Shown here piece after piece: positions 442-15,791 of a DNA stretch of 15,791 nt; positions within the stretch are counted from its first letter, which is position 1; every line of letters begins with the position of its first letter. The notes beneath the pieces were generated by a model. The model was not told the origin of the DNA. It searched no databases and worked only from the letters and a program-made list of their open reading frames with translations. The translations under genes and the position numbers were made by a program. The DNA is from Lysobacteraceae bacterium (GTDB lineage: Bacteria; Pseudomonadota; Gammaproteobacteria; Xanthomonadales; Xanthomonadaceae), in assembly GCA_017990865.1 (NCBI GenBank), contig JAGNNB010000024.1:1-15791 (forward strand), read 5' to 3'.

Positions 442-607
442 GCGCGGACTCGCGAGGAAGTGGAATAGCAGGCCGTTGAAGAGCAGCCTGTAAAAAAGCA
501 GCCTATTTCGACAACCCGATAGAGCGGTCGCAGCGCGCGCAGCGCATCGCCGCGAGTGATGTGCGCGTGCGTCGAAGCGGCACAGGCTCTCGTCGCTGTC
601 GCCCGCA

Positions 608-1528
608 TCAGCGCGGCCCGTCCGCCGTCGGCATCGTCTGGAAACCGATGTCGTCGAATTGCGAGGCGCGACCGGCGAATTTCTTCGCGACGTGACGCAG
701 CTTGAGTCGCTGCAGTGGGCCGCGATTGCCCCAGCGCAACCGGCCGCGCACGAACGTGCCGAGATAGGCGTCGAACTGGCAAAACTCGGGCGCCGCGCGC
801 AGCGGTCGCCGGTCGAGCAAGGCGACCAAGGTCTCGCTGCAGACCATGCCGGCGATCAGGCTGATCGCCGCCGCCGAGGACGGCCCGGTATGGTCTTTCG
901 GATCGACTTGCTCGGGATCCATGTAAGTCCAGTGCCGGCCTTTCGGCGCCAAACCGACGATGAAGCGCATCATGATTTCGAACGGCGACATGCCGTCGCG
1001 CAGACCGAAGTAGTCTTCGAAAGACATGCCTTCGGGCGTGAACACGCCCATCGTGCCTGACAGCCCCAACGGCGCGCCGAACAACACCGGAATGCCCATG
1101 CGGCGCGCGGTGCGATACATCAGCAATCGCGCCGGCTGCGCGAACACGTCGATCGCATCCAACACCACGTCGACATCGCGCAGGAAATCTTCGATGTTGT
1201 GCTCGCCGACGCCGTTGTCGAATCGGCGAACCTCGACGTCCGGGTGGATATCGCGGGCGATCTCGGCCATCACCTCGGTCTTCGGGCGATCCATCGTGCT
1301 GCGCATCGCGCCGGCTTGGCGATTGGTGTTGGCGACGCTGAAGGTATCGAAGTCGGCGACGTTGAATTTACCGATGCCCATCCGCGTCAGCGTGGTCAGA
1401 TAAATGCCGCCGGCGCCGCCCATGCCGACGATCGCCACGCGCGAATCGCGCAGGCGTTGCTGCTCTTCGCGCGTCACGATGCCGAGATTGCGTTTGGTGG
1501 CGGTCCAGTAGTACTCGTCGGGCGTCAT
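608..1528 (-). CDS. ThiF/HesA/MoeB-type (E1-like) adenylyltransferase
   Basis: This 306-residue protein has the Rossmann-type ATP-binding core of the ThiF/E1 family. It shows the glycine loop VGMGGAGG at residues 34-41, the acidic end of the second strand (ADFD, 58-61), NTNRQ at 67-71, a conserved-type lysine in RPKTEVM (K83) and DAID at 124-127. Family members adenylate the C-terminus of a ubiquitin-like sulfur carrier, a peptide or another carboxylate. Neither a CxxC zinc pair nor an obvious E1 catalytic cysteine is apparent; its cysteines are few (in MVCSETL and EFCQFD). It therefore does not look like a standard MoeB or ThiF. No ubiquitin-like partner, E2 or JAB protease is visible in the window. 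It sits 70 bp behind the TonB-dependent receptor gene and ahead of an acyl-CoA synthetase-like gene, all on one strand, which suggests a shared job on an imported or lipid-like substrate. The exact substrate is unknown. Confidence 0.85.
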   Translation of the reverse strand: MTPDEYYWTATKRNLGIVTREEQQRLRDSRVAIVGMGGAGGIYLTTLTRMGIGKFNVADFDTFSVANTNRQAGAMRSTMDRPKTEVMAEIARDIHPDVEVRRFDNGVGEHNIEDFLRDVDVVLDAIDVFAQPARLLMYRTARRMGIPVLFGAPLGLSGTMGVFTPEGMSFEDYFGLRDGMSPFEIMMRFIVGLAPKGRHWTYMDPEQVDPKDHTGPSSAAAISLIAGMVCSETLVALLDRRPLRAAPEFCQFDAYLGTFVRGRLRWGNRGPLQRLKLRHVAKKFAGRASQFDDIGFQTMPTADGPR

Positions 1529-1598
1529 ATCGAAGATCCCGTGGCGTTCCGGCTGCGAGAGCGCGACCGGAACACGGTACGTGCGTCGGAGAAAGCGC

Positions 1599-3860
1599 TC
1601 AGAAGTGATAGCGCAGGTTGATGCCGAAACTGCGCGGTTCCGGTGCGGTGACCAGCGGTTGGAACAACTGGCGTCCGGGGCGTTGCCGCGTCGCGAACTC
1701 GTAGATCGTCGCCGGGCTGCTCAGGAAGACCCCGCTCGCGGCGCCGTCGTCGCCGAGGATGTTGTCGATCCAGAACATCAGCTCCACGTCGTCCTTGCGC
1801 GCGCCGGCATGCAGATTGAACCGTGCGGCGCCGGGAATTCGCGCCGTCGCGGTCTGCACCGCGACCATGCTCGAGCGGTACAGCGCATCGCCGCGCGCGA
1901 ACCAGGTCCAACCGCTATCGGTTTTGTGCTCGCGCATCGCGCTGAAATTCGCGGTGCGTTGCGGCGCGTACTGCAGCGGTTTGCCGGACAGGTCCGGGTC
2001 GCCGCCGATCGCGCCGATCAGCGGGAACACATATTCGTCGTACACCGCGCGGTTGTAACTGGCGCCGCCGCGCAGCGTCCACTCCGGCGACGGATGCGCT
2101 TCGAACGAGGCTTCGACGCCGCGCGAGGAGGTTTTGCCCGCGTTGACGTTCAGCGTCGCGCCGAGTCGGCCGATGCTGCGCACGATTTGATCGTCCCACG
2201 CGATCGCGTACAGGCTGGTGTCGAGGAAAAGACGCCCGTCGAACAGCGAGAATTTTCCGCCGACTTCGTAATTCATGCTGGTTTCGGCGTCGAAGTAGCG
2301 CTCGTCGTCGGCGATCGCGCCGTTGGTGATCAGGGTGTTGAAACCGCCGACTTTCACCGCGCGCACGACGCTGGCGTAGAAGGTGGATTCGTCGTTGGCT
2401 TCGTAGGTGAGGTACAGGCCCGGCGTGAACGGCTCGAACCGCTCGTTCAACCGCACGCGCTGCACCGAGCCCGCGGGATTGGTCGCGCTGGGCAGGTTGG
2501 TTTGCGTCACCTCGGCGGATTTCGTCTCCTCGGTGTAGCGCATCGCCACACCGATACCGAAGCGTTCGGTGACGTGCCAGGTGACCTGTCCGAACAGCGC
2601 CTGGCTGCGCGTGCGCTCGACGTTGTCGCTGACCACGCCGCCCAGCGGTGCCGCGGCGGCGACGAACCGGCTTTGATCGGTGCGATCGTCGCGAAAGTCG
2701 TAGTAATACGCGCCGACCAGCCAATCGAGTTTGCGTTCGCCCTGCGACACCAGATTGAATTCTTGGCTCCACTGTTTTTGCGTGCCGCGGGTGCCGGCCT
2801 GCGAAATTTCGCGCGCGGTGTAGTCGGAGTCGTAGAGTTGATCGGTTTCGAAGCGATCGTAGGCGGTGATCGCGCTCAGCTTGGCGCCTTCGAAATCGTA
2901 ATGCAGGCTCAGCGCGCCCATCAGATTGTCGCGGTCGAAATGTCCGGGCGTGACCGCATAGCCGCGGGTGAGGGTGGGCACGTTGCCGAAAAATTGCTGT
3001 TCGTCGTTGAAGCGCGCGACGAAGCCGCCGTTGTTCGGCACGAAGCGTTGCGCCACGTCGCCTTGCCGCATGCGTTCGTACATCAGATTCAACTGCGCGT
3101 CCCAGCGTTCGCCCGGATACGCGCTGAGCGTCAGAAAGGCGTTGCGCGAGCGGCTCCAATCGAGGTCGCCGCCGGTCAGTTCGTTTTCGTAGTGCCCGTC
3201 GCTGTCGCGCGCCATCGCACCGACGCGGTAGTAGAGGGCGTCCGACGCCAATGGCCCGGACAGCGTGGCGCCGGCTTCGCGCCCGCCGTCGCTGCTGAGG
3301 CCCGCCCGTACGCTGCCTTCGCGTTTGTCGTTGGGCAAGCGGGTGACGAAATTCACCGCGCCGCCGAACGTGTTGCGGCCATAGAGCGCGTATTGCGGCC
3401 CGCGAGCGACTTCCACGCGCTGGATGTTGTCGCCCAGCGCGAAATCCAGGCCGGCGCGCGAAGGGATGTAGACGCCGTCGATGAAGAAACCGACGTTGGG
3501 CTCGCCGATCGCGGTGTTGAGGCCGCGGATCACCGGGTTGTAACCGGAGGAACCGAACAGCGGCACCATCACGAAGCCCGGCACCATCGGCGCGATGTCC
3601 GCCGCGTTGCTCAGGCCCGCGGTCTCGATGTCTTCCCGATCCACCACGCCGATCGAGATTGGCACATCCCGCATCAGTTCTTCGCGCTTGGTCGAGGTGA
3701 CGACGATGGTGTCGAGATTCTGAGCGTCGGCGGGTGCGGTTTCGTCGGCGGTCGTTCCGGCGTCTTCGCCGGGTGGGGTTTGCGCGGGGACTTGGGCGTA
3801 GGCGGACACGCTGAGCGCGGCGCAGACGGCGGCGGTCAGCGCGCTGATTCGGATTCGCAT
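1599..3860 (-). CDS. TonB-dependent outer-membrane receptor
   Basis: This 753-residue protein begins with a signal peptide, cleaved about after SVSAYA (residue 22). A short acidic linker is followed by a TonB-box-like segment, LDTIVVTSTKR (about 49-59). The plug domain follows at about 64-175, with DVPISIGVVDREDIE, the VIRG element near 110, FIDGVYIP near 126 and VEVARGPQYALYGRNTFGGAVN at about 149-170. The rest is a beta-barrel ending in aromatic LRYHF, the usual C-terminal signature for outer-membrane insertion. Its length fits the family. Such receptors import siderophores, vitamins or carbohydrates using TonB energy. No SusC-type extension or SusD partner is seen, so the ligand is unknown. 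The gene heads the minus-strand set that continues into the ThiF-like and AMP-binding genes. Its promoter should lie in 3861-4069. The glycan genes to the right are on the other strand and are separated by an orphan gene and an AraC gene, so a common role is unproven. Confidence 0.93.
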   Translation of the reverse strand: MRIRISALTAAVCAALSVSAYAQVPAQTPPGEDAGTTADETAPADAQNLDTIVVTSTKREELMRDVPISIGVVDREDIETAGLSNAADIAPMVPGFVMVPLFGSSGYNPVIRGLNTAIGEPNVGFFIDGVYIPSRAGLDFALGDNIQRVEVARGPQYALYGRNTFGGAVNFVTRLPNDKREGSVRAGLSSDGGREAGATLSGPLASDALYYRVGAMARDSDGHYENELTGGDLDWSRSRNAFLTLSAYPGERWDAQLNLMYERMRQGDVAQRFVPNNGGFVARFNDEQQFFGNVPTLTRGYAVTPGHFDRDNLMGALSLHYDFEGAKLSAITAYDRFETDQLYDSDYTAREISQAGTRGTQKQWSQEFNLVSQGERKLDWLVGAYYYDFRDDRTDQSRFVAAAAPLGGVVSDNVERTRSQALFGQVTWHVTERFGIGVAMRYTEETKSAEVTQTNLPSATNPAGSVQRVRLNERFEPFTPGLYLTYEANDESTFYASVVRAVKVGGFNTLITNGAIADDERYFDAETSMNYEVGGKFSLFDGRLFLDTSLYAIAWDDQIVRSIGRLGATLNVNAGKTSSRGVEASFEAHPSPEWTLRGGASYNRAVYDEYVFPLIGAIGGDPDLSGKPLQYAPQRTANFSAMREHKTDSGWTWFARGDALYRSSMVAVQTATARIPGAARFNLHAGARKDDVELMFWIDNILGDDGAASGVFLSSPATIYEFATRQRPGRQLFQPLVTAPEPRSFGINLRYHF

Positions 3861-4112: not shown

Positions 4113-5138
4113 TCAGTCTTTTTTGTCTGGGTCTTTACAAGTGGCGTCGATCAAGTCCGGCTTTCCCGACGCGTAAGCATCTTGGCACGCCCTCAGTTCG
4201 GCCTGCGCCTGCTTGTACTTCTCCTGAGCGGCCATATAGGCCACTTCGTTTTCGATACGTTTGCTCCGGAAAGCGAGCAAGCCGCTCACGGACTCGAAAT
4301 AGGCTTTCAATATCGATGCCGGGAGTTTGAAACCCGATTCGATCTCGCTGCTGTTCTTCGGTTCGAAGGCGGTCAGCACGCCGTTATCGAAACCTAGCTT
4401 TCCTTCCGCTTTCGAGAATAGCGAACGATTGAGTCTGAGGAAGAGGGCATCCGCGCCGCTCGGACTGAGCGCGATTTCGGAATGCAGCGTGCGGGCTGGG
4501 AGGACGCTCGAGAAAATCTCGACGCGGTAAGGCATATTCATTCGAAAAAACAGCCCGTTCTTCGGTTTTTTCGAGTCTTTATAGTCATATTCGCCGCCGC
4601 GAGGTTGCCTTCCTATGGGTGTGATACGAACGGTGAAGCCGCAGAAGTAGACCTCAAGCAAGGCTTTCCTGTCGGCTGCCAAATGGGCCACATCGATGGT
4701 TTGCACATAATCGCCGTCCGCGCTGCAAGGTGTGCTGGTCGCAATAGCCTGATTATTTGTTGACACTGTCAAAGGGATGTTGGCGATCGCCTCGATGATC
4801 TTCGGCTCGTATTTGTATTCGGACGAAACCAACAACCCGGCGGTGTTGACCTTGACGCTCATCTGAGTGTCGCCCGCCGGATTCTTGGGAATGGTGACGC
4901 TGTATCGCTTCGATACGTCGGCGTAGTAGACGGTTTCGATCTTGAATTTATCGGATGTTGTTCCGCTCGCAGCATCCGTTGTTCGGGTCATCGTGACCTT
5001 GATGTCGCCGTTCGGGAGGTAGTACCCCAAACCGGGCCGGACCTTCTTGTCATGGCTCATCGATTTCATCGAGGCGCAAGCGGACAAGAAGGAGAATGCG
5101 AAAATCGTCAGCGCGATACGGAATGTGTGGGAAAGCAT
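4113..5138 (-). CDS. Orphan outer-membrane lipoprotein of unknown function
   Basis: From the ATG at 5138 this encodes 341 residues. That start is chosen because GGAGGAG lies directly in front of it, and because the protein then opens with a lipoprotein signal peptide, MLSHTFRIALTIFAFSFLSAC. The lipobox LSAC puts the lipidated cysteine at residue 21. Alanine at +2 and no aspartate there fit outer-membrane sorting. Longer in-frame starts would bury the signal peptide. The body looks beta-rich (for example GYYLPNGDIKVTM at 39-51 and SVKVNTAGLLVSSEYKYEP at 94-112). The C-terminal 60 or so residues are helical and charged (ENEVAYMAAQEKYKQAQAEL, about 297-316), possibly a coiled coil. Four further cysteines (138, 166, 318, 334) could form disulfides. 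I recognise no family. Lysine content and AT-rich codons exceed those of the neighbours, suggesting a foreign origin. It appears monocistronic, with a hairpin terminator behind it. Confidence 0.8.
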   Translation of the reverse strand: MLSHTFRIALTIFAFSFLSACASMKSMSHDKKVRPGLGYYLPNGDIKVTMTRTTDAASGTTSDKFKIETVYYADVSKRYSVTIPKNPAGDTQMSVKVNTAGLLVSSEYKYEPKIIEAIANIPLTVSTNNQAIATSTPCSADGDYVQTIDVAHLAADRKALLEVYFCGFTVRITPIGRQPRGGEYDYKDSKKPKNGLFFRMNMPYRVEIFSSVLPARTLHSEIALSPSGADALFLRLNRSLFSKAEGKLGFDNGVLTAFEPKNSSEIESGFKLPASILKAYFESVSGLLAFRSKRIENEVAYMAAQEKYKQAQAELRACQDAYASGKPDLIDATCKDPDKKD

Positions 5139-5140
5139 GG

Positions 5141-5147
5141 CTCCTCC
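5141..5147 (-). promoter_or_regulatory. Ribosome binding site of the lipoprotein gene
   Basis: On the minus strand GGAGGAG stands just ahead of the ATG at 5138. It is the reason for choosing this start over the upstream in-frame ATG at 5279. Confidence 0.75.
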
Positions 5148-5330
5148 ATGGGTTGTGAACAGAGCGATGCCCCGTCTTTGGACATAGAGCCTCGCTTCGC
5201 AAAGGCTAAATCCGGAGAAGAAAAGGTGTTGGATCGTCTCGGTATCTGTTTCGGTCGGCCGTGGTTTCAGCGAAAGCATTTCATGCCTGCCTGCCGAACA
5301 CGGTGTCGCCGCAGCGATGCCTGAAGAGTG

Positions 5331-5582: not shown

Positions 5583-6422
5583 TCATTGCGCGCAGCGATA
5601 TTCGCGCGGCGTATGCCCGACCCGTCGTTTGAATTGCCGATTGAAGTGCGACATCGTGCCGAAGCCGCATCGATCCGCGATGTCGGCGATGCTGCGATCC
5701 TTTTGCCGCAACAGCATGCAGGCCTCGGCGATGCGCAGGTCGTTGACGTAGTCGGTGAAGGGTTTGCCGGCGATGCGGTGAAAGCTGCGACTGAAGGCGC
5801 CTGGGCTGACGTGCAGAATCGCGGCGGCGTCTTCGACGCTCAGAGGGCCTTGCAGATGTTCGCGGATCCATACCAGCAGGGCGTCCAATCGGCGCTGCCG
5901 GCCGGGATCGCTCTGCAAGACCGGAAACGGGAGCGGGTCCAACGGGCGGAGGTCGCCGTCGGCATCGGCCAACAGCGCGAAGGTGGACAATGTTTCGCCG
6001 AGCATGCGCAGCCCGGGAGCTTCCGGCATTCGCTCCAGCGCGGCGACGATGCGGGTCCGAAGCGCGCCTTCTATCGATAGCCCACGCTGCGCACGCTGAA
6101 GCAGGGGAGCGATGCCGCGCCATTCCGGCAGCGCCGCCAGGGAGGCAGACGGCATCCATTGCAGCACCGTCGCCCAGGCGCCTTCCGGCGGCATGCCGTG
6201 GCTCGACCAGACATGCGGCAGACCCGGACCGATCAGCACCAGATCGCCCGCGGCGAATGGTTCTACCCGACTGCCGACGATGCGCACGCCTTCGCCGCGC
6301 TCGATCCAGGTCAATTCCAGGGCTTCGTGGGCGTGCAGCGCGCCCGCGAAGGACGGCAGCCGCAGCCGCATCAGTCGCACGGACTGGGTTCCGGCCTGGA
6401 TGGACTCCCAAGCGACTTTCAT
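5583..6422 (-). CDS. AraC-family transcriptional regulator with cupin sensor domain
   Basis: The 279-residue protein has an N-terminal cupin-like ligand domain (HAHEALELTWIERGEG, about 30-45; AAGDLVLIGPGLPHVW, 57-72). Its C-terminal AraC/XylS DNA-binding domain (about 180-279) holds two helix-turn-helix units: LSVEDAAAILHVSPGAFSR near 194 and SIADIADRCGFGTMSHFNRQF near 244-264, ending GHTPREYR. Proteins of this build sense a small molecule, often a sugar, and activate nearby operons. The start at 6422 gives the usual family length. The frame is open further upstream to 6758, but that would overlap the divergent dehydrogenase gene and add low-complexity residues. The gene is divergent from the dehydrogenase-esterase-permease unit, with a 27-bp element (6444-6470) between them. 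The same element, followed by a truncated copy of this gene's start, precedes the second glycosidase unit, so this protein is the best candidate regulator of both. Confidence 0.92.
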   Translation of the reverse strand: MKVAWESIQAGTQSVRLMRLRLPSFAGALHAHEALELTWIERGEGVRIVGSRVEPFAAGDLVLIGPGLPHVWSSHGMPPEGAWATVLQWMPSASLAALPEWRGIAPLLQRAQRGLSIEGALRTRIVAALERMPEAPGLRMLGETLSTFALLADADGDLRPLDPLPFPVLQSDPGRQRRLDALLVWIREHLQGPLSVEDAAAILHVSPGAFSRSFHRIAGKPFTDYVNDLRIAEACMLLRQKDRSIADIADRCGFGTMSHFNRQFKRRVGHTPREYRCAQ

Positions 6423-6443
6423 CGGTGGCGATGCCTGCTGAAG

Positions 6444-6470
6444 CGGTCGAAATAGTATCGATATTGGTTG
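6444..6470. promoter_or_regulatory. 27-bp repeated element, copy 1 (putative operator or promoter)
   Basis: A 27-bp sequence starting CGGTCGAAATAG, centred on the palindrome TATCGATA and ending ATTGGTTG recurs without a single mismatch at 10279-10305. Here it lies between the divergent AraC regulator (its edge is 21 bp before that ATG) and the dehydrogenase gene (130 bp before that ATG). The AT-rich palindromic core fits an operator or a promoter -10 region. Its binding partner is inferred, not shown. Confidence 0.75.
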
Positions 6471-6480
6471 TGCGGCACGT

Positions 6481-6490
6481 CTTGCGCAAG
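6481..6490. repeat. Perfect 10-bp palindrome in the dehydrogenase leader
   Basis: CTTGCGCAAG is a perfect inverted repeat 10 bp downstream of copy 1 of the 27-bp element. It has no counterpart beside copy 2, so it is not part of the shared element. It might be a second protein-binding site, or chance. Confidence 0.3.
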
Positions 6491-6600
6491 CTCCACGGCG
6501 GGCACACTGCGGCGCAAGGCCGGGACATCTCCGGCCCACGATCGACCTCGATACCGTGGCGTCGTGCGTTTTTCGACAACCCGCCAGACAAGGTACGCGA

Positions 6601-7803
6601 ATGACATCGGGCGATCTCTCAACGCGTGATCTTTCAATGCGCGATCTTTCAATGGGTGATCTGCATAGTGCGGCCGCCATCGGCGACGGCCGCGGGGGCT
6701 TCGTCATCGACGAGACCATCGTGCGCGCGCCTTCGGCGGGCGAAGTGCGCGTGACCATGCGGGCCGCCGGGATCTGTCATACCGACCACGCTTCGCTGCA
6801 ATGGCCCGGCCCGCTGGTGTTGGGGCACGAAGGCGCCGGTGTGGTCGAAAGCGTAGGCGAAGATGTGGCCTCGACGCACCCGCAGTTGCGGCCCGGTCAG
6901 CCGGTGCTGCTGAACTGGGCCATTCCCTGCGGACGCTGTCCGCAGTGCGAACGCGGCCGGGGTTCGCTTTGCGAGCGCACGCACGGTGTCGATACCGCAC
7001 TGGGCAGCAGTGCGCCGTCGCCGGGCCACACGCAATGGCGAGGACGGGCGATCGAGCGATCCTTCAAGCTCGGTACCTTCGCCGAACATACCGTCGTTCG
7101 CGCGGATGCCTTGACGCTGCTGCCCGAACACCTGCCGCTGCAACATGCCTGCATTCTCGGCTGCGGCGTGATGACGGGCGTCGGCGCTGCGCTGAACATC
7201 GCGCAAGTGCAGCCGGGCGACTCGGTGGCGGTGGTGGGCTGCGGCGGGGTGGGGTTGAGCGTGATCCAAGGCGCTCGCTTGGCCGGTGCCGGCTGCATCA
7301 TCGCCATCGACCGTCGACCCTCGGCGTTGCGGCGAGGCTCGGACTTCGGCGCCACGCACACCATCGAGCCGCGCGCCGACGATCCACAGCACGAACGACT
7401 CGCTGCCGACGTGCGTGCGCTGACCGGCGGGCGCGGTGCCGACCATGCCTTCGAAGCGACCGGTGTCGCCATGCTGGCGTTCCTGCCGCTGAAGTTGTGC
7501 CGCAACGGCGGCAACGCGGTGCAGTTGAGCGGTGCGCATGGTCTGGTGACGGTGGAGATGCCGCAGTTCTGGTGGGACAAGCGCTATCTGGTGCCGCTGT
7601 ACGGTGGTTGTCTGCCGGAACGGGACTTTCCGCGTTTGTGCGACTGGGCGCTGAAGGGCGAGCTGGTCCTGGAGCGCATGGTCACCCATACCTACCGCTT
7701 GAACGATCTGGGGCAGGCGCTGGACGACATGCTCTCCGGACGCAGCGCCAAAGGCGTGATCCTCTTCGATGAGCGCGCCGATCGAATGAAGGGCGAGGCA
7801 TGA
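6601..7803 (+). CDS. Zinc-dependent (class III-like) alcohol dehydrogenase
   Basis: From ATG 6601 this gives 400 residues of the medium-chain dehydrogenase family. Visible zinc ligands are the catalytic cysteine in GICHTDH (C59), GHE (H76, E77) and the cysteine in LGCGVMTG (C188). The structural-zinc set is CGRCPQC plus SLC (C110, C113, C116, C124). The cofactor loop is VVGCGGVGLS (about 211-220), followed by IIAIDRR, whose aspartate suggests NAD. The overall pattern resembles class III enzymes such as S-(hydroxymethyl)glutathione dehydrogenase, but the exact substrate cannot be read. The N-terminus carries an unusual repeated DLS-type stretch, so the real start could be one of the ATGs within it (6640, 6655); 6601 has a weak AAGG upstream. 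The stop overlaps the esterase start by 4 bp (ATGA), so the two are translationally coupled. It probably oxidises an alcohol released or imported by this locus. Confidence 0.88.
   Translation: MTSGDLSTRDLSMRDLSMGDLHSAAAIGDGRGGFVIDETIVRAPSAGEVRVTMRAAGICHTDHASLQWPGPLVLGHEGAGVVESVGEDVASTHPQLRPGQPVLLNWAIPCGRCPQCERGRGSLCERTHGVDTALGSSAPSPGHTQWRGRAIERSFKLGTFAEHTVVRADALTLLPEHLPLQHACILGCGVMTGVGAALNIAQVQPGDSVAVVGCGGVGLSVIQGARLAGAGCIIAIDRRPSALRRGSDFGATHTIEPRADDPQHERLAADVRALTGGRGADHAFEATGVAMLAFLPLKLCRNGGNAVQLSGAHGLVTVEMPQFWWDKRYLVPLYGGCLPERDFPRLCDWALKGELVLERMVTHTYRLNDLGQALDDMLSGRSAKGVILFDERADRMKGEA
6613..6657 (+). repeat. In-frame 15-bp tandem repeat at the dehydrogenase N-terminus
   Basis: Three 15-bp units (6613-6627, 6628-6642, 6643-6657) of the type GATCTTTCAATGCGC follow one another, with a fourth partial unit after them. 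They encode DLSTR-DLSMR-DLSMG-DL. The unit length is a multiple of three, so copy-number change would alter length but not frame. Two units contain in-frame ATG codons. Confidence 0.75.
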
Positions 7804-8630
7804 CCCGCTTCCGTACGCTGGAAACCAGCAACCCCGCGCTGACGCCCGACGGCTTCGACTTCGTCACCGTGAAAAGCCCTGCGCTGGGCCATCGCGCGGA
7901 CCTGACGCTGTTCGCGCCACGCCAGGCGCATGGCCGGCGCGGTCTGCCGCTGGTGCTGCTTCTGCATGGCGTGTACGGGTCGCACTGGTCGTGGGCCTTC
8001 CAAGGCGGCGCGCATCGCACCTTGCAGATGCTGGTGGATCGCGGTGCCGTTCCACCGATGCTGCTGGCGATGCCCAGCGATGGGCTTCGGGGGGATGGGT
8101 CGGGCTACGTGCCCCATGCCGATGCGGATTTCGAACGTTGGATCGTCGATGAAGTACCGGCCGCCGCCCGACAACTGCGGCCCGAGCTGGACGATACCTC
8201 GCCGTTGGCCCTGATCGGCCTGAGCATGGGCGGGTTCGCCGCCCTGCGGCTGGCGGCGCGTGACCCGCAGCGTTGGTGCGCGGCGGCCGGACATTCTTCG
8301 ATCACCGAGGCAGCCCAGCTCGATGCCTTGGTCGAGGAATCGCGAGCGGGCTGGTCTCCGGCGCCCGAAGCCGGCTCGGTGCTGGGCGCGGTGGACGCTG
8401 CGCTGTCGGCCGGCGCGGCGCTGCCGCCGTTGTATCTGGACTGCGGGCTGGACGATCCGCTGCTGCCCGCCAACCGCGACCTGCATGCGGCGTTGCGCGA
8501 TCGCGGTGTCGTCCATGCGTGGCGGGAATACCCCGGTGGGCACGACTGGCCTTACTGGCAGACACATCTGGCCGACAGTCTCGCCTTCGTCGCGAACGCC
8601 ATCGGCGCGCGCGCCAAGACATGCGCATGA
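7800..8630 (+). CDS. Alpha/beta-hydrolase, esterase family (PF00756-like)
   Basis: This 276-residue protein has no signal peptide and is probably cytoplasmic. It has an alpha/beta-hydrolase fold: PLVLLLHGVYGSHWSW (50-65), the nucleophile elbow IGLSMGG with Ser142, an acidic candidate in CGLDDPLL (D218 or D219), and His248 in PGGHDWPYWQTHL. The spacing and the HDWPYW context match the putative-esterase family PF00756, which includes esterase D/S-formylglutathione hydrolase, enterochelin esterases and feruloyl or acetyl esterases. The nucleophile region reads SMGGFAAL, whereas S-formylglutathione hydrolases usually have SMGGHGAL, so assignment to FrmB is not secure. Its ATG overlaps the dehydrogenase stop (ATGA), a strong sign that the two work together. 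It probably removes an acyl or formyl group from the imported sugar or from a thiol carrier; this is inference. Confidence 0.87.
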   Translation: MTRFRTLETSNPALTPDGFDFVTVKSPALGHRADLTLFAPRQAHGRRGLPLVLLLHGVYGSHWSWAFQGGAHRTLQMLVDRGAVPPMLLAMPSDGLRGDGSGYVPHADADFERWIVDEVPAAARQLRPELDDTSPLALIGLSMGGFAALRLAARDPQRWCAAAGHSSITEAAQLDALVEESRAGWSPAPEAGSVLGAVDAALSAGAALPPLYLDCGLDDPLLPANRDLHAALRDRGVVHAWREYPGGHDWPYWQTHLADSLAFVANAIGARAKTCA

Positions 8631-8695
8631 CTTTCAGGTACATCCATTCAACAAGCACGGTGCCGGCCGTGGGCTTCTTTTGAAAGGTCAGCACG

Positions 8696-10192
8696 ATGCT
8701 CAACGCGCAAAAAAACCTGTCGACCGGCTTTCTCATCCTGTTGAGTTTGCCGACCGCCGCGATCGGTTTCTGCCTATCGTCTGCCGTCGCCACGACGACC
8801 TGGCTGCTCAGCACCCGATACGGCCTGCATCTCGAAAACATCGCGCTGATCTGGTTGATGGGCCCGTTGATGGGATTGCTCGTGCAGCCCATCGTCGGCG
8901 CGATCAGCGACCGCACATGGCTGTTGAACGGCCGTCGCCGGCCCTTCCTGATCGCCGGTGGTGTGGCCGGCGCGATGTCCACTTTCGCGATGTTGAAACT
9001 GGACACGATCGCCGCCGCCACAGGCTTGAGTCTGCTCGGTGTCGCTGTGTTCGTGGTGCTGGTCAGCGACCTGAGCACGAACGTCACCTTCAACCCCGCG
9101 CGATCGCTGGTCGCCGATCTGACGCCGGAGGGGCCGGATCGCGTCCGCGGCTACGCGTGGATGCAGATGGTGTCCGGCGTACTCGGCATCAGTGCCTACC
9201 TGATCTCGATTTTCCTGGGCAACCATGTGCTGGTGTTGACCACCGTGGCGGTGACCTTTTTCCTGACGGTCGTGCCGATGTTCTTCATCGAAGAGCGTGC
9301 GCCAGCCGAACGTCCAGAGGATGCGCGAAGCACGGAGCGTACCGGCCGGAGAGACATCGCGGCATTCCGGGCGCTGCTGCCGATGAGCGGCTTCGCGTTC
9401 TATGGCGTGTTCATCGCGGTCGACAAGCTCGTTCTGAAGGATGCGCTCGCGGGCCTGGCGGTGCCGCTGTTTCTTGTCACCGTTGCGGCGACTCTCGCCT
9501 GGGGTGTCTATACCGTCTGGCAGGGACGCTCGATGCCGTCCGATCAGAACCGGCTGCGCACCCTCCTGCTGGGCCATGGCTTCGCATGGCTGGGCGTGCA
9601 GAGCATGTTCGTGATGGCGTTCTTCTACGTCCGCGACTTCATCGTGCCCAATGCTGCCGGATCGGTGCTTGCGGATGCGTTGTACGGCTTGACCAGCACC
9701 ACTGTGCCGACGGCTGCGGATACGGCCGGTCGCATTCTGTCGATGGGTTTCCTGTTGATGAACGTAGTGGGCGCGGCTCTGCCGGTTTTGGTGCTGAAGC
9801 CGCTCTGCTTGAGATGGGGCAAGGTGGCCGTGCATCGCGGTGCGATGGGCGTGATGGCCGCCGCCTATCTGTTCACCGCCCTCGGCTCGCAAAACGAAGT
9901 CTTTTACTACCTGGGTATGCTGTTGTGCGGTATCGGCTGGTCGTCGCTGATCTCCATCGTGTTCGCGATCTTTTCCGAATCGGTGGACGCCAACGCGATG
10001 GGCGTGAACATGGGCGTATTCAATTCGAGCCTCGTGCTGCCGGCGCTGGCGGTGCCGGGATTGCTGAAGCTGTCGGACGCACTCGAACAACACCGCTGGA
10101 TGTTCCTGCTCTTCGCCCTGAGTCTTGCGGTGTCTTTCGCGTTCTGGTGCGCGGTGTCGGAGCGGCCATCCGCGAGCGGTCATGAGGCATAA
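8696..10192 (+). CDS. MFS sugar permease of the SLC45/sucrose-transporter type
   Basis: The 498-residue protein is a polytopic membrane protein with about 12 hydrophobic segments, for example near 11-33, 49-70, 84-100, 108-125, 160-175 and 178-196. Between segments 2 and 3 it has the cytoplasmic motif ISDRTWLLNGRRRPF (70-84), preceded by GPLMGLLVQPIVG. This combination is typical of plant SUC and animal SLC45 sucrose transporters and of bacterial maltose/sucrose permeases near GH13 genes. It should import a di- or oligosaccharide by cation symport across the inner membrane. GAAAGG lies 7-12 bp ahead of the ATG once the AGCACG spacer is allowed for. It follows the esterase by 65 bp, is the third gene of the unit, and is followed directly by the truncated AraC remnant on the opposite strand. 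The downstream alpha-glucosidase fits import of an alpha-glucoside. Confidence 0.9.
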   Translation: MLNAQKNLSTGFLILLSLPTAAIGFCLSSAVATTTWLLSTRYGLHLENIALIWLMGPLMGLLVQPIVGAISDRTWLLNGRRRPFLIAGGVAGAMSTFAMLKLDTIAAATGLSLLGVAVFVVLVSDLSTNVTFNPARSLVADLTPEGPDRVRGYAWMQMVSGVLGISAYLISIFLGNHVLVLTTVAVTFFLTVVPMFFIEERAPAERPEDARSTERTGRRDIAAFRALLPMSGFAFYGVFIAVDKLVLKDALAGLAVPLFLVTVAATLAWGVYTVWQGRSMPSDQNRLRTLLLGHGFAWLGVQSMFVMAFFYVRDFIVPNAAGSVLADALYGLTSTTVPTAADTAGRILSMGFLLMNVVGAALPVLVLKPLCLRWGKVAVHRGAMGVMAAAYLFTALGSQNEVFYYLGMLLCGIGWSSLISIVFAIFSESVDANAMGVNMGVFNSSLVLPALAVPGLLKLSDALEQHRWMFLLFALSLAVSFAFWCAVSERPSASGHEA

Positions 10193-10257
10193 GCCGTGCG
10201 ACGGGTCATGTCCGAAGAGACCGGAGCGGCTTCGATAAGCTCCCAGGCGACTTGCAT
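10180..10257 (-). pseudogene. Truncated 5' remnant of an AraC-family gene
   Basis: On the minus strand an ATG at 10257 opens a 25-codon frame beginning MQVAWELIEA and stopping at 10180. The intact regulator at 5583-6422 begins MKVAWESIQA. In both cases the ATG is exactly 21 bp from the perfect 27-bp element, and both regions read QPISILFRP when the sequence upstream of the ATG is translated. After about ten residues the similarity is lost, and the frame closes inside the end of the permease gene. It is most simply the 5' stub of a second regulator gene whose body was replaced when the permease-containing segment arrived or was rearranged. A functional micropeptide is possible but unsupported. 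Confidence 0.65.
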
Positions 10258-10278
10258 TCGTCGGCAATTCTGCCATGA

Positions 10279-10305
10279 CGGTCGAAATAGTATCGATATT
10301 GGTTG
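10279..10305. promoter_or_regulatory. 27-bp repeated element, copy 2 (putative operator or promoter)
   Basis: This is identical over 27 bp to 6444-6470, with the palindromic core TATCGATA. It lies 45 bp ahead of the preferred alpha-glucosidase start (15 bp ahead of the alternative ATG at 10321) and 21 bp from the start of the AraC remnant on the other strand. The surrounding 21-bp spacer differs at most positions from that at copy 1, so the identity of the 27-mer points to selection and not merely recent copying. It probably controls the alpha-glucosidase-PhyH-GH92-neopullulanase unit. Confidence 0.75.
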
Positions 10306-10350
10306 CGAGACGTCTCCGACATGGCGCCGGGAGCCGGCAAACTGCCTCGC

Positions 10351-12045
10351 ATGTCGATCACGCATTCTCCTTCCCCGGCCACTCCCGATTCGCCCAATCC
10401 CTGGTGGCGCGGCGCCGTGCTCTACCAGGTCTATCCGCGCAGCTTCGTCGACAGCGACGGCGACGGGATCGGCGACCTGCGCGGATTGACCGAGCGCCTG
10501 GACTACATCGCGGAGCTGGGCGTCGACGGGCTCTGGATCAGCCCGTTTTTCCCCAGCCCGATGCGCGATTTCGGCTACGACGTCAGCGATCACCGCGGCG
10601 TCGACCCGCGGTTCGGAACCCTGTCGGATTTCGACGCCTTGCTGACGCGGGCGCATGCGCTCGGGCTCAAGGTGCTGATCGATCAAGTGTGGAGCCACAC
10701 TGCCGCCGAGCACCCGTGGTTCACCGAGAACCGCAGCGACCGCGACAACCCCAAGGCGGATTGGTACGTCTGGGCGGACCCCAAGCCCGATGGCAGTGCG
10801 CCGAACAACTGGCAGAGCTGGATGGGCGGGCCGGCCTGGCGTTGGGAGCCTCGGCGTCGGCAGTACCACCTGCACAATTTTCTGCCGCAAATGCCGGATC
10901 TCAATTTCCATTGTCCCGCGGTGCAGGAGGCGATCCTCGAGATCGCACGTTTTTGGTTGGATCGCGGCGTCGACGGGTTCCGCCTCGATACCGCCAATCT
11001 CTATTTCCACGACCGTTCGCTGCGCGATAACCCGCCGCAGCCGTCGGAGCGCGCGGGCGATTCGCCGGTGCTGATGCAGCGGCATCTGCACAATGCCGAT
11101 CAGCCGGAGACGCTGGCGTTTCTCGAACGACTTCGCGCGACGATGGACGCTTACGGCCGCGGCGAGCGCATGGCGGTGGGCGAGATCGGCGGCGTCGATG
11201 GGCTGCGCACGATGCAGGACTACACGTCCGGCGATCGACGCCTTCACACGGCCTACTCGTTCGGATTTCTCGGCGCGCGGCCCGATGCGGTGGCGGTGGC
11301 GGCGCAACTGTCGCCGTGGCAGGACAGCGACGGCTGGCCGAGTTGGGCGTTCTCGAACCACGATGCGCCGCGTGTGGCCTCGCGCTGGGGCGCACGGACC
11401 GCGCGTGCGTTCGATTTCGGCGCGCAGTCCCGCGCTGCGGACGAGGCGAGCGATGCGCTCCCGCCCGAAACCTGGATGGCGCTGCTGCTCTGTCTGCGCG
11501 GCACGATCTTCCTGTATCAGGGCGAGGAACTGGGCCTCCCGCAAAGCGAGATTCCCTTCGAGCTGATGCAGGATCCGTTCGGTATCGCCAACTGGCCGTT
11601 GAATCCGGGCCGCGATGGTTGTCGCACGCCGATGCCCTGGCAGGGCGATGCGCCGAACGCCGGCTTCAGCGCGGGAACGCCGTGGCTGCCGATCGATCCT
11701 GCGCACGTTCCGTTGGCGGTGGATCGCCAGCACGCGAATACGCGATCGATGCTGCAGACCGCGCGGCGATTGATCGCGCTGCGTCGACGGCTTGTTGCGC
11801 TGCGCGACGGCGATTCGGACATCCTGCACGCGGACGGCGCCGCACTGCTGATACGCCGACGTTGTCCGCAGCAGACGCTGTGGGCGGCGTTCAACCTCTC
11901 GACACAAGGGCAGGCGATCTCCATGCCCGAACCCGTTGCCGACATCCCCGTTTGGCAATTCGGCGGCGCGCTGCTGCACGACCGACACCTCTATTTGCCT
12001 GGCGGCGCCGTCTGGATCGCCGTCGACCCTCCGAGCCCGACATGA
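10351..12045 (+). CDS. GH13 alpha-glucosidase
   Basis: From ATG 10351 this encodes 564 residues without a signal peptide, so it is probably cytoplasmic. It opens with WWRGAVLYQVYPRSFVDSDG (18-37), typical of oligo-1,6-glucosidase/alpha-glucosidase members of GH13. All catalytic motifs are present: DQVWSHT (111-117), GFRLDTANLY with nucleophile Asp213, VGEIGG with acid Glu278, and FSNHDAPR with Asp338. GYDVSDH (75-81) and PMPWQ further on are also family features. It should cleave terminal alpha-linked glucose from short oligosaccharides brought in by the SLC45-like permease. ATG 10321 is an alternative start adding 10 residues; neither start has a clear Shine-Dalgarno sequence, and a TTG at 10303 lies inside the repeated element and is unlikely. 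Its stop overlaps the next start by 4 bp (ATGA), coupling it to the PhyH-type gene. Confidence 0.93.
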   Translation: MSITHSPSPATPDSPNPWWRGAVLYQVYPRSFVDSDGDGIGDLRGLTERLDYIAELGVDGLWISPFFPSPMRDFGYDVSDHRGVDPRFGTLSDFDALLTRAHALGLKVLIDQVWSHTAAEHPWFTENRSDRDNPKADWYVWADPKPDGSAPNNWQSWMGGPAWRWEPRRRQYHLHNFLPQMPDLNFHCPAVQEAILEIARFWLDRGVDGFRLDTANLYFHDRSLRDNPPQPSERAGDSPVLMQRHLHNADQPETLAFLERLRATMDAYGRGERMAVGEIGGVDGLRTMQDYTSGDRRLHTAYSFGFLGARPDAVAVAAQLSPWQDSDGWPSWAFSNHDAPRVASRWGARTARAFDFGAQSRAADEASDALPPETWMALLLCLRGTIFLYQGEELGLPQSEIPFELMQDPFGIANWPLNPGRDGCRTPMPWQGDAPNAGFSAGTPWLPIDPAHVPLAVDRQHANTRSMLQTARRLIALRRRLVALRDGDSDILHADGAALLIRRRCPQQTLWAAFNLSTQGQAISMPEPVADIPVWQFGGALLHDRHLYLPGGAVWIAVDPPSPT

Positions 12046-12848
12046 ACGCACTCGACGACCTCTATTCACTCAGCGCCGAACAGATCGCCGCATTCCGCCG
12101 CGACGGTTTCATCAAACTCAAGGATGTGTTCGACGCGGACACGTTGACGCACTACGGCCGCGAGATCACGCGGCTCACCATCGAACTCAATACCGAGCGA
12201 CGGCCGCTGGAAGAACGCAGCACCTATGATCGCGCGTTCCTGCAGGTGATGAATCTGTGGGAACACAGTCCGTTGGTCGGCCGTTTCGTGATGGGACGGC
12301 GATTGGCGCGGATCGCCGCGGAATTGCTGCAGGTGGAAGGCGTGCGGCTCTACCACGATCAATCGCTGTACAAGGAACCCGGCGGCGGCATCACCCCGGC
12401 GCATGCTGATCAATATTACTGGCCGCTCGCCAGCGACCGCACGATCACCGCATGGGTGCCGCTGCAACCGGTGCCGCCGGACATGGGGCCGCTGGGTTTC
12501 TACGCGCGCAGCCAATCGGTCGCCTTCGGCCGCGATTTGGGCATCTCCGACGAGAGCGAAGAGAAGATCAGCGCGAACATGACGGCGCACGGTTTCGCAT
12601 TCGAGAGCGGCGGTTTCGATCTCGGCGAAGTCAGCTTTCATCTCGGTTGGACCTTCCACAAGGCCGGCGCGAACCTGAGCGACCGTCCGCGTTCGGTGAT
12701 GACCATCATCTACATGGATGCCGACATGCGGCTCACCGAAGCCTTGAACGCGGTCCAGGCCAACGATCGCGACCAATGGTGTCCGGGCGTACAGCCTGGG
12801 CAGACGATCGATACGCGCAAGAATCCGGTGATCTGGAGGCGCGCTTGA
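12042..12848 (+). CDS. PhyH-family Fe(II)/2-oxoglutarate-dependent dioxygenase
   Basis: The 268-residue protein starts at the ATG overlapping the alpha-glucosidase stop. It has the phytanoyl-CoA hydroxylase-type fold: EQIAAFRRDGFIKLKDVFD at the N-terminus, then LYHDQSLYKEPGGG (103-116), and the iron-binding HxD in THE segment PAHADQYYWP (His121, Asp123). The distal histidine is in FHKAGANLSDRPR (His206), with an arginine (215 or 217) for 2-oxoglutarate. The family hydroxylates or oxidatively dealkylates small substrates, consuming oxygen and 2-oxoglutarate. Its tight coupling on both sides to glycosidase genes is unusual and suggests action on a sugar or sugar derivative; the substrate is unknown. 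No signal peptide is seen, so it is cytoplasmic. Its stop overlaps the TTG start of the GH92 gene. Confidence 0.88.
   Translation: MNALDDLYSLSAEQIAAFRRDGFIKLKDVFDADTLTHYGREITRLTIELNTERRPLEERSTYDRAFLQVMNLWEHSPLVGRFVMGRRLARIAAELLQVEGVRLYHDQSLYKEPGGGITPAHADQYYWPLASDRTITAWVPLQPVPPDMGPLGFYARSQSVAFGRDLGISDESEEKISANMTAHGFAFESGGFDLGEVSFHLGWTFHKAGANLSDRPRSVMTIIYMDADMRLTEALNAVQANDRDQWCPGVQPGQTIDTRKNPVIWRRA
12835..12839 (+). promoter_or_regulatory. Ribosome binding site that sets the GH92 start at TTG
   Basis: GGAGG ends 5 bp before the TTG at 12845. Translation from there begins directly with a signal peptide, whereas the frame upstream only covers the PhyH gene. This makes the TTG the best start. Confidence 0.75.
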
Positions 12849-15019
12849 ACGCGATTGCGGTGCGTGTCGCGCTGGCGCTGTGCTTGTTGTCGCCGCCGGC
12901 ATTTGCGCGATCGCTCACCGACTTCGTCGATCCTTTCATCGGCACCGACGGCACCGGTCACACGTTTCCAGGCGCATCGATGCCGTTCGGCATGGTCCAG
13001 CCCAGCCCGGACAACACCGATCGCGGCTGGAGCTACAGCAGCGGTTATCAGTATCGCGCGCCGAAGATTCTCGGCTTCTCGAACACTCACATCAGCGGTG
13101 CTGGCATCGGCGAACTGGGCGATGTCCTGCTGCAACCTGCGCAGGGCGATGCGTGGAACGCGGGAACCGTCGATTTCGCCAGCGCGTACGACAAACGCAG
13201 CGAAACCGCGCGCCCGGGTTACTACGCGGTGACGCTGCGCGATCGCGGCGTACGGGTGGAACTCACCGCCAGCGAACGTGTCGCGTTCCAGCGCTATACC
13301 TTCGATCGCCCCGGGCGGGTGCAGGTGCTGGTGGATCTGCAGCACGGCATTCTCTTCGGCGATGGGCCGCGCGTGACTCGTGCAGATGTTAGCCAAGCGG
13401 ATATCGCGGTCGGACCGCAGAATCTTCAAGGCACGGTGTTCTCGAAAAACTGGGTCGAGCGTCAGGCCTCCTTCGCGGTGCGATTCAGTGCGCCGATCGT
13501 CGAGAGCATCGTGCTACCGCCGCGCGACGGCGACAAAGCGCCGCGCTATGTGCTCGCTTTCGACCTGGGCAAGAGTAGGGTGCTGGAAGCGCGCGTCGCG
13601 CTGTCGACCGTGGACGAAGCCGGTGCGCTGCGCAATCTCGCCACCGCCGACGAGCGCGACTTCGCACGCGTGCGCCGCGATGCCGATCGCGCGTGGAATG
13701 ATCTGCTGGGTCGGATTCGCATCGAGGCCGATGCGCGCACGAAGCGGATGTTCTATTCGGCGTTGTATCGCGCCATGCTGCATCCCAGCCAGATCGCCGA
13801 TGCCGACGGTCGCGTGCGCGGACCGAAAGGTGAGGTGATGCGAGCGCCGGACGGCGTCTATTACTCGACCCTGAGTCTGTGGGACACGTTCCGCGCCGCG
13901 CATCCGCTGTACACGTTGATCGTGCCGGAACGCGTGCCCGGTTTCGTCAATACGATGATCGCGCACCAGCAGCAGATGGGCTATCTGCCGCTGTGGACCG
14001 CTTGGGGTCGCGAGACCCACACCATGATCGGCAATCCGGCGATGCTGGTGATCGCCGATGCGCTGATCAAGGAAGTGCCGGGGATCGATGCCGATGCCGC
14101 GCTGCAGGCGATGCTGGCCACCAGTACTAAGCCGCGCCCCGATGCGCCCGTGTGGGCGCAGCGCGACTGGGACACGCTGGAGCGCTATGGCTATCTGCCC
14201 TTCGACGTGCAGACCGGCGAATCGGTGTCGATGACCGCGGAACTGGGCTATGGCGACGCCGCATTGGCGCAGTTGGCGAAACAGCTCGGTCGCGAGGAGA
14301 TCGCGACGCGCTTCTCGCGGCGCGCCACAGGCTGGACGCGCTTGTTCGATCCGACGACGCGCACGCTGCGCGGCAAGGACAGCGCCGGACGCTGGCGTAC
14401 GCCATTCGATCCCACGGTCGCGACGTCGCCGATGAACAATCCCGGCGATTACACCGAAGCCAACGCCTACCAATACACCGCCACGCCGGCGCTGCACGAC
14501 GCCGAGGGCTTTCGCGACGCGCTCGGCGGCGCGAAAGAGCTGGAGACATGGCTGGACGATTTTTTCGCGCGCGCGGCGCCGAACGCGGACAAGCATCTCG
14601 GCCAGGAGGCGATGATCGGGCAATACGCGCACGGCAACGAGCCGAGCCATCACATCGCTTGGCTCTACGCGTTCACCGACGCGCCGCAGAAAGGGCACGC
14701 GCGCGTTCGCGAGATCGTGCGCCGTTTCTATCGCGACACGCCCGACGGCATCGTCGGCAACGACGATGCCGGGCAGATGAGCGCATGGCTGGTGTTCGCG
14801 ACCCTCGGCCTGTATCCGGTTCAACCGGCGCGCGGCGAATACGTCTTGGGTGTGCCGCTGGTCGCCGAGGCCCGCGTGCGCATCGGCGACGCGCAATTGC
14901 ATATCCGCCGCGAGCCGCGCGACATCGCGACGCTCGACGGTCGCGCGCTGCCGCGTACCGCAGCGCCGCATACGGCACTCGCCGCAGGCGGTATGCTGCG
15001 TCTCGGTCCGGCGCGATGA
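12845..15019 (+). CDS. Exported GH92 glycosidase (alpha-mannosidase family)
   Basis: Starting at TTG 12845 the protein has 724 residues, a normal length for GH92. A signal peptide (MNAIAVRVALALCLLSPPAFA) ends at about residue 21, so it acts in the periplasm or outside. Family hallmarks are all present: DPFIGTDGTGHTFPGASMPF (29-48), GFSNTHISGAGIGELGD (77-93), LWDTFRAAHPLYTLIVPE in the middle, QYAHGNEPSHH with Glu599 as the likely acid, and GNDDAGQMSAW (638-648), whose aspartates are base candidates. GH92 enzymes are calcium-dependent exo-alpha-mannosidases. Finding one between an alpha-glucosidase and a neopullulanase is unexpected and suggests a mixed mannose/glucose substrate. The TTG overlaps the PhyH stop (TTGA) with a good Shine-Dalgarno sequence ahead; a GTG at 12860 is a weaker alternative. 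The unusual start could lower its translation relative to its neighbours. Confidence 0.92.
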   Translation: MNAIAVRVALALCLLSPPAFARSLTDFVDPFIGTDGTGHTFPGASMPFGMVQPSPDNTDRGWSYSSGYQYRAPKILGFSNTHISGAGIGELGDVLLQPAQGDAWNAGTVDFASAYDKRSETARPGYYAVTLRDRGVRVELTASERVAFQRYTFDRPGRVQVLVDLQHGILFGDGPRVTRADVSQADIAVGPQNLQGTVFSKNWVERQASFAVRFSAPIVESIVLPPRDGDKAPRYVLAFDLGKSRVLEARVALSTVDEAGALRNLATADERDFARVRRDADRAWNDLLGRIRIEADARTKRMFYSALYRAMLHPSQIADADGRVRGPKGEVMRAPDGVYYSTLSLWDTFRAAHPLYTLIVPERVPGFVNTMIAHQQQMGYLPLWTAWGRETHTMIGNPAMLVIADALIKEVPGIDADAALQAMLATSTKPRPDAPVWAQRDWDTLERYGYLPFDVQTGESVSMTAELGYGDAALAQLAKQLGREEIATRFSRRATGWTRLFDPTTRTLRGKDSAGRWRTPFDPTVATSPMNNPGDYTEANAYQYTATPALHDAEGFRDALGGAKELETWLDDFFARAAPNADKHLGQEAMIGQYAHGNEPSHHIAWLYAFTDAPQKGHARVREIVRRFYRDTPDGIVGNDDAGQMSAWLVFATLGLYPVQPARGEYVLGVPLVAEARVRIGDAQLHIRREPRDIATLDGRALPRTAAPHTALAAGGMLRLGPAR

Positions 15020-15092: not shown

Positions 15093-15791
15093 ATGAAACA
15101 CCGCCCGCTTCGACGCGCGATCGCTGCGTCCGTGTTGTCGCTGATCTGCTGTCTTGCGGCGCTGCCGGTCTTCTCGGCGAACGCGACCAAGACCGCGGAT
15201 ACGCGCGCCGACGCGCGCGCGCCATCGTCGACGCCCGCCGTCTACCCGCCGAATTGGTGGGTCGGGATGCGCGATCCACGCCTGCAGATTATGTTGCGGG
15301 CGCCCGACATCGGCGCGGGCGACGTGCGTCTCGACGACACCGCGCGTGCGCGCATCGTCCGAGTTGTGCGCGGCGACAGTCCCAACTATCTGTTCGTCGA
15401 CCTCGAGATCGCCGCCGATGCCGCGCCCGGCGATCTACGGTTGCGCCTGACTGCGGAAGGTCGTGAGCGAACGCTGCGTTACGCGTTATGGCCGCGCAAG
15501 CCGGGCTCGGCCGAGCGTCGCGGCTTCGACGGCCGCGATGCCATTCTCAATCTCATGCCCGACCGTTTCGCCAACGGCGATCCGGGCAACGATCGCGTCG
15601 CCGGCTACGTCGAAGGCGCGAATCGCGATCACCCCGGCGGTCGTCACGGCGGCGATCTGCGCGGCTTGCGCCAGCGTCTCGACTACATCGCGGGCATGGG
15701 CTACACCATGGTCTGGCCGACGCCGCTGATCGAGAACGCGCAGACCGAATACTCGTATCACGGTTATGCCGCGACCGATCTGTACCGCATC
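15093..15791 (+). CDS. Exported neopullulanase/cyclomaltodextrinase-like GH13 enzyme, cut by right edge
   Basis: The visible 233 codons begin with a signal peptide (basic MKHRPLRR, hydrophobic core to about residue 28). An N-terminal beta domain at about 50-135 opens with YPPNWWVGMRDPRLQIML, the signature of the cyclomaltodextrinase N-terminal domain. The GH13 barrel starts at about 146 with FDGRDAILNLMPDRFANGDP, GGRHGGDLRGLRQRLDYIAG (182-201), MGYTMVWPTPLIEN and YSYHGYAATD (220-229). This matches SusA-type neopullulanases, which cut alpha-1,4 bonds in pullulan, cyclodextrins or maltodextrins in the periplasm. The catalytic Asp/Glu/Asp set lies beyond the window. It follows the GH92 gene by 73 bp, and that gap holds a 24-codon frame linking the two. 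It is probably the fourth gene of the unit and the starting enzyme of glucan breakdown. Confidence 0.9.
   Translation, partial: MKHRPLRRAIAASVLSLICCLAALPVFSANATKTADTRADARAPSSTPAVYPPNWWVGMRDPRLQIMLRAPDIGAGDVRLDDTARARIVRVVRGDSPNYLFVDLEIAADAAPGDLRLRLTAEGRERTLRYALWPRKPGSAERRGFDGRDAILNLMPDRFANGDPGNDRVAGYVEGANRDHPGGRHGGDLRGLRQRLDYIAGMGYTMVWPTPLIENAQTEYSYHGYAATDLYRI

Follow-up and report, generated by a model that had tools for sequence, protein, structure and literature searches.

The 15,791-nt window analysed here, the whole of contig JAGNNB010000024.1 (C101) of a Lysobacteraceae bacterium, carries two identical copies of a 27-bp element, CGGTCGAAATAGTATCGATATTGGTTG, at 6444..6470 and 10279..10305. 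It is likely that this element serves as operator for an AraC-family protein, the product of 5583..6422 on the minus strand, that this protein activates both plus-strand operons of the window through tandem half-sites, and that the second copy of the element stems from a duplicated divergent region. Copy 1 lies between the minus-strand araC and an operon for an alcohol dehydrogenase (ADH), an esterase and an MFS transporter (operon 1), and copy 2 lies between the end of operon 1 and a GH13-PhyH-GH92-GH13 operon (operon 2). A shared AraC-type control site probably serves both operons; that the regulator gene and both operons have the site in common agrees with such a model and with the synteny described below. 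The identity of the copies, their conservation above that of the flanks, the synteny and the spacing are direct observations.

As the original prediction had claimed, direct reading finds the two 27-bp stretches identical at 27 of 27 positions, where the chance expectation for exact 27-base repeats in a window of the same composition is about 6e-8. The 27-mer is the core of a 79-nt direct repeat, 75% identical, that was recovered by a repeat search of the window. The source assembly (3.45 Mb, 551 contigs, 86.5% complete; Lysobacter-like, environmental) holds these two copies only when up to three mismatches over 26 bases are allowed (reversed-pattern control, 0), and both adjoin this regulon. 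When seven genomes were searched for the 21-bp core with up to three mismatches allowed, no regulator sites beyond the known ones were found. Spacers of 21 bp (6423..6443 and 10258..10278) separate the two 27-mers from minus-strand ATGs that open MKVAWES.. and MQVAWEL.., respectively. In an ungapped comparison by 15-base blocks, the copies agree at 5/15 positions in the spacer block just before the 27-mer, at 5/15 and 6/15 in the two blocks after it, at 11/15 and 11/15 from -45 to -16 (the araC start codon and first codons), and at 3 to 6 of 15 per block beyond these codons. The earlier claim that the 27-mer stayed unchanged while the spacers and following codons diverged is therefore correct. 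Downstream of the 27-mer, gapped alignment finds no similarity above shuffles, either between the copies (P 0.18 and 0.30 by scoring scheme) or between each copy (rows W1 and W2 of the anchored comparisons below) and the congener G009 (P 0.12 to 0.67).

In related genomes the 27-mer outlasts most of its flanks, as the original prediction expected. The close comparison genomes are G009 and G006. The latter is a near-identical sister metagenome-assembled genome (MAG), which agrees with the window at 89-95% of the fourfold-degenerate sites in six genes or parts of genes. At copy 2, G006 keeps 27/27 positions of the element, 14/21 (67%) of the spacer and 69/86 (80%) of the 86 upstream bases, spacer included; the next 32 bases after the element are kept at 28/32 and the 16 bases beyond these at 16/16. 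Copy 1 is uninformative in this pair because every part of it is 89-100% identical. In G009 the 27-mer is kept at 22/27 positions at both copies, whereas the spacer scores 6/21 and 5/21 and the stretch that directly follows the element 10/27 and 8/27; the araC start (26/39 and 23/39) and the block of a downstream hexamer (14/21 and 12/21) are partly kept. It is conceivable that the araC promoter region underwent duplication or gene conversion and that the 27-mer is a mere leftover of this event, maintained without selection. Copy 2 does adjoin a relic of the araC 5' end, the repeat does reach 79 nt at 75%, and a short conversion tract is possible for the window pair alone. However, the flanks carried by the same duplication differ at many positions whereas the 27-mer is unchanged, 17 of the 86 bases before copy 2, including 7 in the spacer, differ from G006 against 0/27 in the element, and 22/27 positions are kept in G009, all of which makes a mere leftover improbable.

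The original prediction also pointed to a palindrome, TATCGATA, which is indeed central in both copies, perfect over 8 bp, and might be taken as the binding site of a different protein, a dimeric repressor such as one of LacI or GntR type. The dyad symmetry is not conserved, however: it becomes TATCAATA in G009 and is missing at the aligned place in the elements of the other relatives, and these relatives do have an element beside araC. The palindrome is thus hardly a working unit, and a repressor of this kind is a very improbable explanation of the element.

What does recur among relatives is a pair of short boxes at fixed spacing. In the 27-mer, GGTCG starts at base 2 and GGTTG ends it, which places the boxes 21 bp apart (6445..6449 and 6466..6470 in copy 1; 10280..10284 and 10301..10305 in copy 2), with AGTAT in between at 6454..6458 and 10289..10293. 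By eye, the distal half-site would read GGTCG..AGTAT and the proximal one has no clear B box. The boxes are AGTCG/GGTCG in G009 and AGTTG/AGTTG in the Burkholderiales MAG L018, and their distances to the araC start, 22 and 43 nt, are exactly those of the window. RGTYG, a pattern derived from W1, W2, G009 and L018 themselves, occurs in these four at the two positions and nowhere else in the first 110 nt, the scanned stretch being shorter than that in some. When exact 5-mer repeats at spacings of 12-31 were collected, G009 and L018 each gave the 21-bp repeat alone, and L019 gave three, among them the 21-bp repeat, which there reads GTCAT/GTCAT at 62 and 83 nt from araC and 58 nt from the hexamer of that sequence. 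The box repeat of the window agrees at 4/5 letters; exact 5-mer repeats with a spacing of 21 do not occur there. Candidate direct half-sites about 21 bp apart are accordingly found in W1 and W2 (4/5 letters) and in G009, L018 and L019 (5/5).

A -10-like hexamer completes the layout on the plus strand, 32 bp from each copy: CACACT at 6503..6508, the putative operon 1 promoter, and CAAACT at 10338..10343, which ends 7 nt before the GH13 ATG. It reads CACACT, CAAACT, CACACT and CACACT in W1, W2, G009 and L018, where its distance to the araC start is 80, 80, 80 and 79 nt, respectively, and the GT of the first box stands 56-58 nt before it in 9/9 anchored sequences, the hexamer having been picked by eye. 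The anchored rows omit the near-identical G006, and eight-row statistics omit W2 as a duplicate of W1. G009 keeps the layout: counted from the araC start, GT comes at 23 and 44 nt and the hexamer at 80 nt. A looser form of it is seen in five genomes from a single Burkholderiales family, of which one has no second box. On the minus strand, the element might instead be the core promoter (-10) of araC, bound by RNA polymerase only, as TACTAT precedes the araC start by 29 nt and its distance to the start codon is equal in G009 (TTG there). Nevertheless, copy 2 is intact with no araC gene to transcribe, the start there being lost in G006; 27 bp of identity exceeds a -10 box; and scans found no -35 partner. 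A core promoter and nothing else is therefore quite unlikely.

Several results weigh against the operator proposal and its layout. The close evidence comes from two genomes, the near-identical G006 and the congener G009, and the window assembly, G006 and G009 are all incomplete (86.5, 82 and 75%, respectively). A scan found no sigma-70 -35/-10 pair in either intergenic region, and the hexamer serving as anchor was chosen by eye in each sequence. The L019 repeat matches the layout on the hexamer side only, the RGTYG pair was not seen in G080, G159 and G181, and column conservation upstream of the hexamer over eight rows, with 1 column at 7/8 or better, was not significant (P 0.144). Four held-out genomes of the same Burkholderiales family as L018 (G1112, G1231, G1178 and G1167) were compared with a prediction written before they were read. 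Its box pattern (RGTYR twice, spacing 21) was found in 0/4, and its alternative clause (GT 56-58 nt upstream of the hexamer, hexamer 6-8 nt before the GH13 ATG) held fully in G1167 only, the G1112 hexamer lying 9 nt from the ATG. By looser measures these genomes do agree with the layout: a core GT is present at 23 or 24 nt in 4/4 and at 44 or 45 in 3/4; the total of 7/8 was reached by 5e-5 of shuffles, the GT pair in 3/4 and the NANAMT hexamer at 79-81 nt in 4/4 each by 0/20,000 shuffles, in tests framed after the held-out sequences had been seen. Lastly, G080, G159, G181 and G231 (L013, L028, L027 and L029) carry a different 24-bp element, GAATCGGCACAGTATGSGYCATCC, between araC and GH13, and the cross-clade resemblance between it and the 27-mer does not reach significance (P 0.106). 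Taken together, these observations suggest an operator architecture that is genuine but degenerate and based on spacing. Such an architecture is usual for AraC-type sites.

The 24-bp element occurs once per genome in the four genomes named and is not found in G000, G006 or G009. It is 22/24 identical between G080 and G159, with flanks at 7/18 and 9/30, and again 22/24 identical between G080 and G181, with flanks at 8/18 and 8/30; G159, G181 and G231 are too similar to one another to be independent evidence. Because element identity exceeds that of the flanks in each clade, the element adjoining araC seems to be under constraint in both. The second recognition helix of AraC reads GHFHRQL in the genomes with the 24-bp element, compared with SHFNRQF; together with the different element, this is a hint of protein-site co-evolution.

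The history of the two copies can be read in part from the DNA beside copy 2. The minus-strand ATG at 10255..10257 opens MQVAWELIEAAPVSS.., a frame of 25 codons resembling the start of the AraC protein, MKVAWESIQAG.., and the likeness of the upstream pieces at the two copies was equalled by 1/1000 shuffles. In G006 this ATG is AGG and the following codon is TAA. Copy 2 thus carries a decayed 5' end of araC (10193..10257, minus strand; MQVAWELIEAA..). The original prediction placed each element exactly 21 bp from an AraC-type ATG; that distance is exact at both copies, but the second ATG opens 25 codons rather than an AraC gene, and there is only one AraC gene here. Since the second start is a decayed copy, the equal 21-bp spacing most likely reflects shared descent by duplication.

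Homologues of the AraC protein were collected from overlapping genome samples, with the genome of the window included where present (4/99, 6/395, 3/398, 2/395 and 5/225; further overlapping samples gave 1/369, its own genome only, 1/1 and 2/2). A 20-bp motif was found in 3/99 genomes, the 21-bp core in 3/7 and the 24-bp element in 4/7. L021 and L022 (30 and 33% identity over about 82-84 residues) were excluded before counting, as was G964/L034, which has 35% AraC identity and a weak TonB-dependent receptor match but no operon gene nearby. Protein relatives with 82-91% identity (P0004, P0005, P0007-P0022 and P0024, among the 120 of 186 matches listed) belong to the protein-level comparison, and the DNA-level comparisons do not take them in.

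In G080, G159, G181, G231 and L018, araC is divergent from an adjoining GH13 gene followed by PhyH, with GH92 next in the first four. The araC of G009 adjoins PhyH-GH92, with no ADH-esterase-MFS block between. That of G1112, G1231 and G1167 adjoins GH13 (the G1167 contig ends inside this gene), and that of G1178 adjoins PhyH, beyond which lie GH13-type, ADH, esterase and GH92 genes. The MFS gene lies within the same araC-headed cluster in G080, G159 and G181. Both operons of the window thus consist of genes that in other genomes belong to single araC-headed clusters. The G1231 homologue (L047) matches with one internal TGA, which may be the gene's own stop.

Because a single araC heads GH13/PhyH/GH92 clusters in the relatives, some of them with MFS or ADH-esterase as well, the window looks as if a divergent promoter had been duplicated and had thereby divided one cluster in two. 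We give roughly even chances to a history in which an ancestral araC-operator-GH13 divergent promoter was duplicated whole, its copies decayed in opposite halves with the operator frozen in both, and ADH-esterase-MFS was captured as a separately tuned second operon. At copy 1 the araC side would have survived and the GH13 start would have been lost; at copy 2 it would have been the GH13 side that survived and the start of araC that disappeared. A putative relic of the GH13 start at copy 1 (CGCAAG for CGCATG) is suggested by an in-register CAMACTGC..CGCA match and by a test of windows across three sequences (P 0.0004 for the best ten-column window), and the case stops at these two because gapped alignment is not above shuffles. 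The order of the duplication events is what we infer. The 27-mers could also be a target-site duplication around a mobile ADH-esterase-MFS cassette, as they bracket exactly that block and relatives hold its members elsewhere in the cluster. The three genes are metabolic by Pfam, however, with no transposase or integrase among them, and G009 has a site next to araC without the block. The repeat moreover includes diverged araC codons, and is therefore older than a fresh target duplication. A mobile cassette is thus highly improbable.

If the element is the AraC operator, binding, activation, autorepression, an inducer and the start sites can be inferred as follows. The GGTCG box with AGTAT behind it would form the first half-site and GGTTG, 21 bp or two helical turns downstream, the second. 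Taking the CAMACT hexamer as -12 to -7 would put the 27-mer at about -71 to -45 on the plus strand, the place where activators of the AraC type meet RNA polymerase, and the half-sites at about -71/-57 and -50/-36. The activator would hold the strong distal half-site; with inducer, the weak proximal one would be filled and polymerase recruited, switching on operon 1 from copy 1 and operon 2 from copy 2. The protein may also repress its own gene via copy 1, and such autorepression is probable because copy 1 covers the likely araC promoter stretch (TACTAT). Copy 2 would have arisen by duplication of the ancestral araC-operator-GH13 region, its araC half decaying and its operator being kept. As a guess, the inducer is an alpha-glucoside or alpha-mannoside, given the GH13 enzyme with its structural matches 3wy1 and 6aav, GH92, and an MFS transporter with a sub-threshold sucrose-symporter match.

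The product of 5583..6422 is by its C-terminal domain an AraC/XylS family regulator, and the presumed binder of the element. Its double helix-turn-helix scores 84.1 bits with PF12833 (HTH_18; cut-off 33.6) and 59.2 bits with PF00165 (cut-off 26.6), and its PDB matches (SoxS, Rob, MarA and AraC) cover residues about 171-278. The N-terminus is a possible cupin with a score just under the cut-off (Cupin_2, 26.3 bits versus 27.2), and the precomputed Pfam list for this protein (P0001) includes PF07883. Operon 1 encodes a zinc alcohol dehydrogenase-like protein (6601..7803), an esterase-family alpha/beta hydrolase (7800..8630) and an MFS transporter (8696..10192), the last with Pfam MFS_1 and MFS_2 above cut-off and a sucrose symporter as its best NCBIfam match, far under the cut-off of that model. 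The N-terminus of the ADH frame (6604-6670) is by eye a short degenerate tandem repeat reading GDLSTRDLSMRDLSMGDL, for which reason the true start may be further downstream. Operon 2, also on the plus strand, encodes a GH13 alpha-glucosidase-like enzyme (10351..12045), a PhyH-family (phytanoyl-CoA dioxygenase-like) protein (12042..12848), a GH92 enzyme (12824..15019, frame coordinates; the exact start is not fixed) and a second GH13-type enzyme (15093..15791), cut by the contig end, whose NCBIfam matches are all below cut-off. In window copy 2, L018, L019, G1112, G1231 and G1167, only 6-9 nt separate the hexamer from the GH13 start codon that follows; its nearness to the ATG (10338-10353 in the window) suggests that the GH13 mRNA is possibly leaderless.

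On the minus strand between araC and a TonB-dependent receptor gene (1599-3860), a 388-aa frame (4113-5279) has no Pfam match; nor does it have a match in G006, where araC and the receptor gene are only about 200 bp apart (L014). The receptor gene and a ThiF-family gene (608-1528) make up the minus strand of 1-3860 in an order kept in G006 (L014), together with an acyl-adenylate-ligase-like frame at 1-441, named by look only, without a domain search.

The control proposed here is itself of an ordinary kind, and the probable duplication of a whole promoter with its araC relic is the most interesting part. If true, it would be a case of natural operon splitting and regulon rewiring through promoter duplication, and it suggests a way for a regulator to gain a second operon, namely through a copy of the divergent region that controls its own gene. 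The window also offers a candidate operator, open to testing, for an AraC subfamily linked with a carbohydrate locus of GH13, GH92 and PhyH genes. No description of the locus, the regulator or such a promoter duplication was found among the open-licence papers listed, judged by title and abstract start.

Known systems offer parallels for the enzymes as well as for the control region. The best solved-structure matches of the operon 2 GH13 enzyme, 3wy1 (residues 17-538) and 6aav (14-558), are GH13 alpha-glucosidases/alpha-glucosyltransferase, whereas the window candidate is clustered with GH92, PhyH, ADH and esterase genes. The nearest parallel for the element is MtlR of Pseudomonas fluorescens, an AraC/XylS protein that, as far as the account in PMC4514859 goes, binds AGTGC-N5-AGTAT-N7-AGTGC-N5-AGGAT, with 15-bp blocks in PmtlE at -72/-58 (strong) and -50/-36 (weak, required for inducibility). 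The window would share with it the tandem half-sites, the upstream AGTAT, a repeat of 21-22 bp and promoter-adjacent 15-bp blocks at near-equal coordinates. It differs in having CGGTC-N5-AGTAT where PmtlE has AGTGC-N5-AGTAT and in its unclear proximal second box. In the araC/araBAD system of E. coli, as outlined in PMC3163201, one divergent region likewise lies between a regulator and a catabolic operon, and the window regulator is similarly thought to repress itself and activate enzymes. Unlike in E. coli, the second operon here would be served by a second copy of the region, and the two proteins match only in their DNA-binding half.

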